64,000 nt of DNA from assembly GCA_031296935.1 (NCBI GenBank), contig JAVDPD010000013.1, positions 85,380 through 149,379 of the forward strand. The letters run 5' to 3'. Numbering within the stretch: the first letter of the stretch is position 1; each line of letters begins with the position of its first letter. This document shows, piece by piece, positions 28,204-33,006 of the stretch. The notes beneath the pieces are model-generated. The model was given only the letters and a program-made list of their open reading frames with translations, did not search any database and was not told the origin of the DNA. This DNA is from Cerasicoccus maritimus. Its GTDB lineage: Bacteria; Verrucomicrobiota; Verrucomicrobiia; Opitutales; Cerasicoccaceae. A program made the translations under genes and the position numbers.

Positions 28204-31200
28204 TCAGTTGGGAAAGTTCGCCAGCGGCGCACCGCCGTATACTTGTGTTTGGCGTGCGAGTGCGCCGGTGAAGCCCGCATTGTAATCCATCGCCACTTCG
28301 TTGGTGATGTAGTCCGTGCGGTCATCGACGTAGCTGAAATCATCGGCTGACTTCGGGCCGCCAACCAACGCGCCATAGAGCACGTGCAGGTTGTTGACCG
28401 GCAGGCCAATGTTGTTCGTCGTCGAGCCATGCGCAGCGCGGTGGTGCGGATTGATCGGCGAGTTCTCACCGAAGCCGACCACGTAGCTGCGGTTCGCAGG
28501 ATTGTCGCCAAGGATGTAGTCGAGCTGCTCCGCGGCAAAGCCCGTGTAAACGCCGCCGTCATCGTTGACCGTATCACCGTAGATGAAGGCCATCATTGCG
28601 GTGTTCGCGGCGTAGCGCAGGCTACCCCACTGGTCAAGCCAGGCCAGGCCGCCATCGGTGCGCGTGATCGATCCGCCGACCCAGTTATCGAGCCAGTTTT
28701 CCACGGCGTTCTTGTAAGTCGCCTTGCCGGTCAGCTGGGCCAGGAGCACGGCGGCACCGTAAGACTTGTCGTCCCAGTTAATCGTCCAGCCGTTGTTGAG
28801 GCCACCCACGGCGCTCCAGTAGCTCTCGGCCTTAGTCAGGTAGGCAGCGTCGCCAGTGGCTTTGTAAAGCCAGAGCGCGCCCCAGACGAGCTCGTCTTCG
28901 TAGCCCGACCAGGAATTATAGAATGATTGAACGTTCGAAATTGAGTCTGAATACTTGCCGCGGTAGGAATCAGCAAAGGCGTAGAGTTCTTTAGCATGGG
29001 AAATTAGTTCGCTAGCGTAGGTAGGGTCACTGTCTTTAAAGATAATAGCTGCTGCTGCTAATGCTGCTGCTGCCTCACCCGCTACATCGGAGCCGGGGTT
29101 TTCCGCGTCAACCTTCCAGGCCGGGCGGTCCATCGTCATGGTTTCCGGCGGGCCCCAGTAGGAGTGGTCAACATGACCATCTCCTACCTGTGCGTAAAAT
29201 TCGTTGGCGCTGGGATGGGCCTTCATCAGCCAATCCGTGCCCCAGCGAATGGTATCGAGCGCCTCGTCGAGCTGTCCACTGTCGGCGTAGCCCTGCTCAT
29301 ACTCGTCGATGCCCCACGCTAACAGCGTCAGCGAGGAGGACATCGGCAGCGCAAACTTTACGTGGTCGCCCGCATCATAGTAGCCACCGCTGAGGTCGAC
29401 CCCGACGTCCGCGCCATCGTCAAGCGCCGAGTCACCGCGCCATGAGACGCGGTTATCCTCGGGTAACTCACCGGAACGCTGAGCCTCGTAGAAGTACAAA
29501 GACTTCTGCAAGGCTTCACCGTAGTTGAAGGAGCTCACTTCCGCATCGCCAGATGTATCATCCGAGCCATCAGAACTGGAGCTGTTGTCATCGGTGCTGC
29601 TAGACGAGCCATCGGTGCTAGACGAGTCATCGCCGCCATCCGCAGTCTCTTCTTCAGCGAACGCTTCGGAAGTGATGTGGATGATGCTGTCTTCGTCGTC
29701 GTAGTCGCGGATGTCGTTGGAAAGCTCCCAGAACATCACACCGCCGAGGCCTTCGTCGTCGACATACTCAAGCTTGCGTTCCACTGCGCGCGGGCTGTCA
29801 TAGCCGGCAAAGGTGCCACCATCGAGCGTTGCGCTGTAGAAGTAACTCACCTGCGCTTCCTCGTCCCACTTTTCAGCGGACGGCTCAGCGTCGACGAGCG
29901 CAGCGATCGTGCGGTAGTCCGCCATGCCGGGCTCATCGGCAATCGTGCCAACGCCCGTTCCCGTGGCGCTCTGGTAGAGACCATCGTTGGTCGACGGAAC
30001 GCCCTTCCAGCTGTAGCCGTAAAGCGGGATGCCGAGGTTGAGCTTGTCGGCAGACACACCCGCGTCGATGTAGCCCTGGATCGTGGACGACGCGTTGTAG
30101 CGGTCACTGTCCGGGCTGGCCGAATTATGATATAGCGGCGCATTATGGCCAGTGCGATTGCTGACCCAGCGGCCATGATAATCGTAGGTCATCACGTTGA
30201 GCCAATCGAGCTCATCGGCGAGGCCGTCGAGGTTGATTTCCTCATACTTGTCATAACCGGCGGGCAGCGCGGCGCTGATCAAATACGTCTTGCCGTCAAT
30301 CGCGCTTTGTGCATCGAAGGCGTCGCGAATGGCGCGCGCCAGGAGCACGTAGTTTTCGCCATCAGCCGCGGAGACATTCGAGTTCACATCGGTCGCAATG
30401 GCCGGGTATTCCCAGTCGAGGTCCACACCGTCGAACTGATACTCGACCACGAAATCGCGGACGGACTGCGCAAACGCTTCGCGCGAGGCGGCGCTGGCGG
30501 CAACCGTCGAGAAGCGATCCGAATCAAACCAACCACCTACGGCGATCATCGTTTTCAAATGTGGGTAAGCTTCCTTCAGCTCGATGTATTGATTGAAGAT
30601 ACCCCTCAGTTCCTGGTCCCACGTGTCGTCGCCATAAGTCTTCTCAATGTCAGCCCAGGTGTCGATGATTTCGATTTCGCCCGCGGCATTGATCGTCGCA
30701 AATGCGTGGACAATGTGTGTGAGGCGCTCGGCGGGAATATCCGTCGGGTGGTAATCACGACCATAGATGCCCCAACTTGGGAAGTAGGCCACGATGCGCT
30801 TGCGGAAGTTGCCATCGACCTCAACATCGGCATTGCCGCCATCCGTTGATCCATCGTCCGTGCCGCCGGTAGAGCCGTCGTCGGTTCCACCATCATCCGT
30901 GCTGCCGTCGTCGGTTCCGCCGTCGGTCGATCCGTCATCCGAGCCTCCGTCATCCGTGCCACCGGTAGAGCCGTCGTCGGTGCCACCGTCATCCGTTCCA
31001 CCGTCATCCGAACCGCCGTCGTTGCCGCCGTTAACTGCGACGCCGTTGATCATAATATTGGTCGGGTAAGAAGATACGTTACCGGGTGTGCCGTTGAAGC
31101 CGAACTCAATTGAGCCGCCGGCCGCGATGCTGCCATTCCAGGAAACATTACTGAAGGTGTAGCGGTCGCCTTCGTGCGAGACGAGCGTAGCGCTCCAGTA

Positions 31201-33006
31201 ATCGGTAATTTCGTAGGGCCAGTCAAAACTAAGCTCCCATGCACTGATGGCTGAGCCAGTCGTGTTGGTCACGATCGCAGTGGCGCCAAAACCGCTGCCC
31301 CAGTCGTTGGTAATGTCAATCGTGAGGCCCGCCGCGGCGTCTCCGCCAGAGGAACCGCCATCATCCGTGCCGCCCGTAGAACCATCGTCCGTGCCACCGG
31401 TGCTGCCATCGTCGGTTCCACCGTCATCAGTTCCTCCGGTTGATCCGTCGTCCGAACCACCGTCGTCGGTTCCGCCGTCGTCCGAGCCATCGCTGATGGC
31501 CGTGCCGTTCAGTGTGGCGTTTGTCGGTTGCGTCAAGACATCGCCAGGTGTGCCGTTGAAGCCGAAGGTAACGCTGCTGCCCGCTGGAAGCGAAGCGTTC
31601 CAAGTCGCATTCTTCACAGTGATCGTCGTGCCGTCCACGGAAACGAGTTCGGCGTCCCAAATGTTCGACGGCGCGTGCGCCCAATCGAAGGTCAAGGTCC
31701 AGCCGCTCAAGTCGGCGCCGGTCGTGTTGGTCAGCGTGGCGCTTGCGGTGAAGCCACTGCCCCAGTCGTCGCTAACGTTGACCACGAAACCTGCGTCGCT
31801 GGTCACGCCATCATCCGTGCCGCCAGTTGAACCATCGTCCGTGCCGCCAGTGCTGCCGTCGTCGGTTCCGCCAGTTGAACCGTCATCGGTTCCGCCGTCG
31901 TCCGTGCCGCCGTCGTCCGTGCCGCCGTCATCGGTTCCTCCGGTCGATCCGTCGTCCGTGCCACCGTCATCGGTGGAGCCGTCATCAGTCGATCCGTCAT
32001 CCGAACCGTGATCGTGGTCGTGGTCGTGCTCTTCATCGGAGATATCGACGCCGTTCATCGTGACATCGGTCAGGTTGACTCCGGTGGAATCGCCGCTGGC
32101 CTGAAACCCGAAGGTTACCGAGCCGTCCACTGGAATGCTGCCATTCCAGCCAGCATTCGTCAGGCTGTAGCGATCACCATCGCGCCCAACCACATTGGCG
32201 CTCCAAATGTTGATCATCTCATTCGGGAAATCAAACTCGAGCGTCCAACCATCGATGGCAGTGTCGAAGGGATTGGTGAGGGTGACATTGCCCACGAAAC
32301 CGCCATCCCACGAATCTGTCACGGAGAAGTCGACGTAGCTGGAGGTCGGCCCAGCCATGTTCATGTCGTCAGTGGGGTCGGTCGTGGTGTTGCCGTTGTC
32401 CTCACCGAAGACGACATCGCTCCACGAGAAAAACACCTCACCTGCCGGGTCGATGCGTTGCCAGATCACGTAGATGCCGGCGCGGCCTTCGCGCTCAGGC
32501 AAGTCGAGGGTAAAGGTGTAGTTGTTGTTACTATCCAGGCTGGCCTCGATGTAGTCATCGAGCAGCACGAGGTCGTCCCAGCCGACAGGTTGCAGCGGAT
32601 CGTAGTCCGGCTTCGTGATGTAGGCCACGAAGAAGCTGGGATCGTGCGGGACGTGCGCGTAATAAACGAAGTCGTAAGGTCCGGCCTCAACTTGAGTCAC
32701 CGGCCAGTCGTCGCGCAAAAGGTCAAGGCCGGCATACTTATCTCGCCCAGCGCTGGGTAATTCGCCATCGGGAATGTGCGCTCGGTAATCATAATCCGGG
32801 ACGAGAAGGCTGACTTCGTGCCAGTCGTAAAAAGCCTGGGTGCCGGCGACCGCAATTGCGGCCTCGGAAGAAGGGTAATCTGGAGACTGGGGGTCTTCCA
32901 AATAGATTTCGTAGACCCGGCTGACGGGGTCCGCCATCGAACCGTGGCCAAAGGCCGACGCGCTAAAGCTCAGCGCCGCCAGTCCGGTTATAAGGTACTG
33001 TTTCAT
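28204..33006 (-). CDS. Multi-domain secreted enzyme: AA10 LPMO, three CBM2-like, GH18 chitinase, GH9
   Basis: A 1600-residue exported enzyme. Signal peptide is residues 1-20; cleavage leaves His21 at the mature N-terminus, the first ligand of the copper histidine brace, and His121 ([13 protein letters not shown]) aligns with the second. AA10 spans about 21-200. CBM2-like modules lie at about 222-320, 405-505 and 558-660, separated by Asp/Gly/Ser/Thr linkers. GH18 spans 735-1115 with [10 protein letters not shown] (catalytic Glu866). GH9 spans about 1159-1600 with DAGDH (Asp1211/Asp1214), NPHHR (about 1519) and the acid Glu1570 in TNE. All catalytic residues appear intact. It should oxidise and hydrolyse chitin and beta-1,4-glucan. 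No sorting tail is seen. Confidence 0.9.

Follow-up and report, generated by a model that had tools for sequence, protein, structure and literature searches.

A single gene in a 64,000-nucleotide stretch of DNA from Cerasicoccus maritimus (contig JAVDPD010000013.1, positions 85,380 to 149,379; hereafter the window, in whose coordinates positions are given) was found to join an AA10 lytic polysaccharide monooxygenase (LPMO), three CBM2 carbohydrate-binding modules, a GH18 chitinase domain and a GH9 putative glucanase domain in one polypeptide. From its domain content, the product is likely to be a tri-catalytic enzyme that is secreted, anchors itself and attacks insoluble or crystalline beta-1,4 polysaccharides, namely chitin and beta-1,4-glucan. 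The frame (28204..33006, minus strand) starts with ATG and encodes 1600 amino acids (aa) with zero internal stops, and the plus strand contains many stops. AA10 (Pfam LPMO_10), the three CBM2, GH18 and GH9 all exceeded the curated Pfam cut-offs, and in a profile search of the window protein each of the three catalytic domains spanned its entire model. The open frame and the Pfam matches thus bore out the architecture and completeness that a first-pass annotation of this DNA had proposed without naming a strand. The chain begins with a hydrophobic leader, whose last letters are AFG and which is followed by His21, and ends with GH9, nothing lying C-terminal of it. The protein is presumably secreted, and its predicted mature form would have a mass of ~168 kDa, an isoelectric point of ~4.05 and no cysteine.

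The residues expected for catalysis were found in all three domains. GH18 proteins are characterized by the motifs DxxDxDxE, which includes the catalytic Glu, and MxYD; the window protein has DGVDLDWE at residues 859-866, with the acid Glu866, and MTYD at residues 939-942, and these were observed in 4/4 orthologues. The Pfam GH18 match (residues 737-1098) covered model positions 1-317 of 317, and the nearest solved relatives were the chitinases 5gzu and 1itx, in alignments that preserve the motifs. In GH9 enzymes the key residues are the Asp pair of DAGDH and an acid Glu near the C terminus. The GH9 match (residues 1162-1583) covered all 444 model positions and included DAGDH from residue 1211, NPHHR from residue 1519 and TNE with Glu1570. 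Asp1211, Asp1214 and Glu1570 were retained in 4/4 orthologues, that of genome G002 having ANE instead of TNE with the Glu kept. The LPMO_10 match (residues 21-198) covered model positions 1-183 of 183 with 117.5 bits against a cut-off of 23, and His1 and His101 of the mature domain (His21 and His121 of the precursor) were invariant in 8/8 aligned AA10 sequences. AA10 relatives have His-Gly at the equivalent position (HGS, or HGA in L033), and the AA10 domains of some of them are also cysteine-free (e.g., L011, L012, L013, L103 and L108), whereas others, such as L004, have one cysteine. The first-pass annotation had therefore named the histidines, the GH18 motif from residue 859 and the three GH9 motifs correctly.

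The fusion is conserved throughout the genus. A full-length gene in one frame was observed in 4/4 Cerasicoccus genomes examined, the window's own included, and the other three copies were 75-85% identical, one of them being reported as two pieces of one frame. The named neighbours are C. frondis (L002, best segment 87%) and C. arenae (L003, 74%). Compared to the window protein, the domains of the three orthologues were 67-91% identical and the linkers 31-78%, and the catalytic motifs of AA10, GH18 and GH9 were retained across the four orthologues. Pairwise ratios of nonsynonymous to synonymous substitution rates (dN/dS) were 0.03-0.10 for AA10, 0.09-0.12 for GH18 and 0.05-0.10 for GH9; these values are rough, since 2/18 catalytic-domain pairs were saturated and undefined and the synonymous sites of other pairs were near saturation. 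The corresponding uncorrected ratio (pN/pS) of the catalytic domains was 0.09-0.22. AA10, GH18 and GH9 thus evolve under purifying selection, which maintains each of the three catalysts. Linkers rich in repeats pose a difficulty for assembly, and an assembly artefact or a pseudogene fusion was considered for this reason; it is, however, hardly credible, since independent assemblies carry one frame in 4/4 genomes of the genus and dN/dS is low in every domain. A misjoin or frameshift in the linker repeats, which the first-pass annotation had named as one possible fault, was rejected on these grounds, and the fusion is real. Two small genes upstream of the fusion gene were conserved in 3/3 loci tested (L002, L003 and L079). 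SecD-SecF, in one 899-aa frame (window 34861-37560), is also upstream, and secDF likewise adjoins the gene at the C. frondis locus (L002). Matches to the query were obtained in 121 plasmid records, 0 of which had one place covering 80% of it.

Table 1. Features of the fusion gene in window coordinates
Feature	Position	Strand	Residues	Details
Whole gene	28204..33006	minus	1-1600	1600 aa, AA10 - CBM2 x3 - GH18 - GH9; single open frame, Pfam
Signal-like leader	32947..33006	minus	1-20	Cleavage predicted before His21; sequence
AA10 LPMO domain	32392..32946	minus	21-205	Copper ligands His21, His121; Pfam, E 1.5e-33
CBM2 domain 1	32032..32343	minus	222-325	Pfam
Repeat linker, acidic Gly/Ser/Thr/Asp	31798..32031	minus	326-403	Tandem repeats
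CBM2 domain 2	31492..31797	minus	404-505	Pfam
Repeat linker	31336..31491	minus	506-557	Tandem repeats
CBM2 domain 3	31027..31335	minus	558-660	Solved matches 2rtt, then 1exg
Repeat linker	30805..31026	minus	661-734	Tandem repeats
GH18 chitinase domain	29698..30804	minus	735-1103	Pfam, E 3.2e-91; aligned to 5gzu, 1itx
Linker	29542..29697	minus	1104-1155	31-61% identity in three orthologues
GH9 domain, predicted beta-1,4-glucanase	28207..29541	minus	1156-1600	Asp1211, Asp1214, Glu1570; Pfam, E 3.7e-162

We then considered the activity of each domain. The best solved match of the GH9 domain was the Thermobifida fusca cellulase E4 (1js4, 578.6 bits), and 13/13 solved matches within an E-value limit of 1e-120, which we chose ourselves, were named glucanases or cellulases. 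By its nearest solved relatives, the domain is predicted to be a beta-1,4-glucanase. Some Vibrio GH9 enzymes release glucosamine, and the domain sits beside two chitin-type domains, as would suit a glucosamine-releasing enzyme that aids the use of chitin or chitosan rather than a cellulase. Given the score against E4 and the uniform naming of the 13 matches, this seems very unlikely.

The AA10 domain is less easily assigned. Its five best solved matches were 7zjb, 6if7, CbpD (8c5n and 7sqx) and 5fjq. In the available sections of PMC10067821, chitin is the sole active substrate of ScLPMO10D (7zjb), CbpD (7SQX) and 5FJQ are named chitin oxidisers, and oxidative activity of 6if7 (Tma12) is not demonstrated. 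Moreover, the cellulose-active 4oy7 scored 73.6 bits, far under the 154.9 bits of 7zjb. These matches favour chitin over the alternative that cellulose, or both polymers, is the main target of oxidation by the AA10 domain, which would then serve GH9 as much as GH18. That alternative, which is compatible with the tri-catalytic enzyme proposed here, is less probable but deserves serious attention, since related AA10s are joined to GH9 without GH18 (L004, L005, L006, L007, L011, L013 and L033) and since ScLPMO10D itself shows traits of cellulose-active LPMOs and shares AA10 subclade A with C1 oxidisers of cellulose (PMC10067821, section 5 for the subclade). The AA10s close to that of Cerasicoccus, in a tree whose inner forks are partly unresolved, include fusions with only GH9, with only GH18 and with the two together. 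Because of these fusions and of the features that ScLPMO10D shares with cellulose-active enzymes, specificity cannot be carried over safely from relatives to the Cerasicoccus domain. An AlphaFold model of the AA10 domain was poor (mean predicted local distance difference test score [pLDDT] 59.0, from 8 sequences) and carries no weight.

The Pfam CBM_2 match consisted of three stretches (E 2.1e-63, 211.4 bits). For the third module, the best solved match was 2rtt, a molecule named ChiC, and the next was 1exg, an exo-1,4-beta-D-glycanase. CBM2 modules are also able to bind chitin, according to the part of a review that concerns them (PMC10154629). The linkers are acidic Gly/Ser/Thr/Asp repeats; that at residues 326-403 was 48-73% identical and varied in length in the three orthologues. 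Taken together, the parts suggest a mode of action in which the three CBM2, on their flexible acidic linkers, would anchor the protein to a chitin or cellulose surface, where the AA10 copper domain would oxidatively nick crystalline chains, most likely of chitin and possibly of cellulose. GH18 would then hydrolyse chitin from the newly made ends and GH9 would hydrolyse beta-1,4-glucan nearby, and the covalent linkage would confine oxidation and hydrolysis to one spot. Activity, substrates and synergy are predicted here from sequence, and a gain from the linkage is proposed by analogy with the AA10-CBM5-GH18 enzyme of Jonesia.

Family members were also counted genome by genome, with E <= 0.001 as the threshold for a profile match. 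The fusion gene accounted for 1/1 AA10, 1/1 GH18 and 3/3 CBM2 in every one of the 4 Cerasicoccus genomes, and for 1/1 GH9 in three of them and 1/2 in the fourth (G003). At this threshold no further AA10, GH18 or CBM2 was found in the window's genome assembly, which is 97.56% complete. Similarly, every AA10, GH18, GH9 and CBM2 match of two other family genomes (G385 and G343) fell in one frame. We infer that the bacterium would use the fusion gene as its main kit for chitin and cellulose particles. Several observations weigh against the proposed reading. The second, more distant GH9 of G003 (94 bits) is above the cut-off. Genome G000 has 4 GH5 matches, 3 of them above the cut-off, so that the fusion gene need not be the sole glucanase. 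GH19, GH6, GH48 and other families lay outside the scope of the genome searches, and secDF was not found at the C. arenae locus L003. The specificities of GH5 enzymes are diverse; together with GH20 matches in 9/10 family genomes, the GH5 matches indicate that other beta-glycan enzymes are present.

The gene is not a one-off. We collected 74 loci in named genomes with six short peptide patterns, which makes the collection a sample rather than a census. Across all the loci compared, those that repeat a gene already present (L080-L107 and L128-L148 overlap others) were not taken as separate proteins, and in one of the sets frames cut by a locus edge were left out of the count. Among the 74 loci, 3 combined AA10, GH18 and GH9 (L002, L003 and L012), 7 had AA10 and GH9 without GH18 (those listed above), and 5 had AA10 and GH18 without GH9 (L017, L019, L020, L023 and L041). 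All of these fusion loci contain CBM2, with some frames cut by contig ends. The fusion gene is one of a series encoding modular proteins of the types AA10-CBM2-GH9 and AA10-CBM2-GH18, most of them from Verrucomicrobiota. The tri-catalytic chain was present in 6/10 genomes of the family (4 Cerasicoccus, G385 and G343), a recurrence in one frame in several genomes of the kind that the first-pass annotation had named as support. It was further detected in at least 4/384 genomes of the class, at least 6/372 of the order and at least 2/387 of the phylum, counts that are lower bounds since at most two candidates were scored per genome in these draws.

Domain order and content varied among these relatives. 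In two other genera of the family, the AA10, GH9 and GH18 chain has the reverse order, with GH9 before GH18: L012 and G385 share an 1800-aa frame, and L108:3717-10520 (G343) encodes 2268 aa in which AA10 and GH9 are accompanied by a pair of GH18-like domains, a DIDLE motif being present in the first of the pair. Genome G172 has a CBM2x3-GH18-GH9 gene plus a separate AA10-CBM2x3 gene. L109 (G143) reads CBM2-GH9-...-GH18 and runs past the contig end, and L110:61-6153 (minus strand; G243, from another family) encodes 2031 aa as AA10-CBM2-GH5-Calx-beta-He_PIG x7-CBM2-GH18. Genome profile searches found no AA10 and no GH9 in G125, G216 and G386, in which a GH18 chain has an extra conserved domain in place of AA10 and GH9. 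This extra domain is flanked by CBM2 modules in the G216, G125 and G386 GH18 proteins, and L116 (G007) has one too; it covers ~520-535 aligned aa at L112:3068-4663, L113:4995-6599 (minus), L163:3277-4866 (minus) and L116:4393-5958. No usable family match was obtained for it at these four loci; a weak AlphaFold model resembles a glycoside hydrolase barrel, although, with a mean pLDDT of 50.9 for L113 and 4 sequences, it carries no weight. Two further combinations were seen. L125:660-4490 joins AA10, Alginate_lyase2, CBM2, Calx-beta and GH9 in one frame, that is, an LPMO, an alginate lyase and a glucanase. At L009:1724-7627, a GH5-GH9-CBM3 gene is directly followed by an AA10-CBM2 gene in a metagenome-assembled genome labelled Planctomycetota, whose GH9 nests among verrucomicrobial GH9s, indicating transfer or misbinning.

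We then investigated the origin of the combination using domain trees. In the GH9 tree, Cerasicoccus grouped with G172 (93/94), adjoining two cyanobacterial GH9s, and L012 and G343 grouped with AA10-CBM2-GH9 proteins (100/100). The approximately unbiased (AU) test rejected one GH9 clade of Cerasicoccus, G172, L012 and G343 (p = 0.0003), and also this clade with three AA10-CBM2-GH9 relatives added (p = 0.0013). Since the GH9 comes from a different lineage and the order is reversed, the combination of AA10, GH9 and GH18 probably arose, by assembly or by rebuilding, on at least two occasions. The AA10, GH5 and GH18 chain of L110 also speaks for repeated assembly of such enzymes. Three points count against a simple account with two origins. 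The AU test was post hoc, both groups having been defined after the tree was seen. In the GH18 tree, Cerasicoccus stood beside the L012/G343 group (95/89), which also includes CBM2-GH18 and AA10-CBM2-GH18 proteins, so that one old fusion with later GH9 replacement fits too. Finally, the deep forks of the AA10 tree were unresolved for Cerasicoccus versus L012/G343. The trees therefore suggest at least two assemblies, or a single assembly with later GH9 replacement.

As to the substrate, the first-pass annotation had suggested chitin-glucan composites such as fungal or algal walls. GH9 cleaves beta-1,4-glucan and the glucan of fungal walls is mainly beta-1,3/1,6, so that fungal walls fit poorly. 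Specialization for a natural composite of interwoven chitin and beta-1,4-glucan, the domains being fused since the two polymers need opening at the same place, is a tentative option that would be compatible with the tri-catalytic enzyme proposed here; possible candidates are oomycete-like walls, some algal walls and mixed marine detritus. In its favour, a glucanase and a chitinase in one chain recur across separate verrucomicrobial lineages, and PMC13235733 describes, from elsewhere, multimodular enzymes shown to act on the composite walls of brown algae. However, the same pattern could arise if mixed particles selected for a compact secretome. The available part of PMC10288369 places Cerasicoccaceae in marine sediments and seawater, in cold seeps and in a fertiliser fermenter, habitats that make mixed detritus as likely as a dedicated composite wall. 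More speculatively, marine Verrucomicrobiota might on several occasions have packed a secretome for chitin and cellulose into a single gene, all parts travelling together because the food particle interweaves both polymers. On this tentative account, the order of domains and the glucanase family (GH9, GH5, perhaps the barrel-like domain) would vary while the pairing of glucanase and chitinase recurs. If true, such a condensed secretome would add a third strategy to those of free enzymes and of cellulosomes.

Elsewhere in the window, a plus-strand gene run at 20978-27323 comprises an AraC regulator and GH20-like, pilin-like, heparinase-like (weak, below cut-off) and PL14-like genes, and looks like a separate polysaccharide locus. 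Two large frames, at 16501-20046 (1181 aa) and 10870-14262 (1130 aa), had no Pfam match at E 0.001. A promoter and terminator scan gave 8 promoter-like sites versus a mean of 3.8 in shuffles, and 6 terminator-like sites versus 6.7; it was not used as support.

Comparison with described proteins agrees with the rarity that the first-pass annotation had claimed for the combination. Talamantes et al. (2016) surveyed 11,953 genomes and reported 217 multi-activity proteins, of which 6 were cellulase:chitinase proteins; in their Table 1 these were 5 GH5-GH18 and 1 GH8-GH18, with no GH9-GH18, and the term AA10 is absent from the main text (PMC4928363, in the portions available). These proteins resemble the Cerasicoccus one in joining a cellulase and a chitinase but differ in family and in source (Mycobacteria, Chitinophaga and Thiothrix). 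No description of an AA10, GH18 and GH9 chain was found among the listings and abstracts searched from the open PMC literature. According to section 5 of a 2023 review (PMC10154629), a single bicatalytic LPMO, AA10-CBM5-GH18, had been characterised by then, and the linked form of Jd1381 (JdLPMO10A, Jonesia denitrificans) outperforms its separate parts according to the same section. Jd1381 likewise has AA10, GH18 and a binding module in one chain; in contrast, it lacks GH9 and has one CBM5 rather than three CBM2, and two catalysts rather than three. The Cerasicoccus enzyme thus shares the AA10 and GH18 of the Jd1381 type while exceeding its two catalysts, and may work like an extended form. AA15 LPMOs, which belong to another LPMO family, occur as fusions with a GH9 or a GH18 domain or with GH and X modules in combination, and the consulted part of PMC8615602 does not state that GH9 and GH18 share one chain. 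T. fusca E4 (Cel9A) has a similar GH9 catalytic domain, with DAGDH and NEVA aligned, but it carries a cellulose-binding domain with GH9, whereas the Cerasicoccus chain ends at GH9.

A chain that links one LPMO with hydrolases for two different polymers, is conserved through a genus and was probably put together more than once offers a natural test of whether covalent LPMO-hydrolase linkage matters and of which natural substrates demand joint cleavage of chitin and beta-1,4-glucan, and the enzyme is a candidate for the processing of chitin-cellulose waste. CelAly and other algal-wall multimodular enzymes similarly combine binding modules and two polymer specificities of one wall in one chain, but they act on glucan and alginate, and the four enzyme types described in the accessible part of PMC13235733 are without chitinase or LPMO. 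Modular multi-activity enzymes are already known, and what the Cerasicoccus gene adds to them is the whole set in one gene, probably assembled repeatedly.

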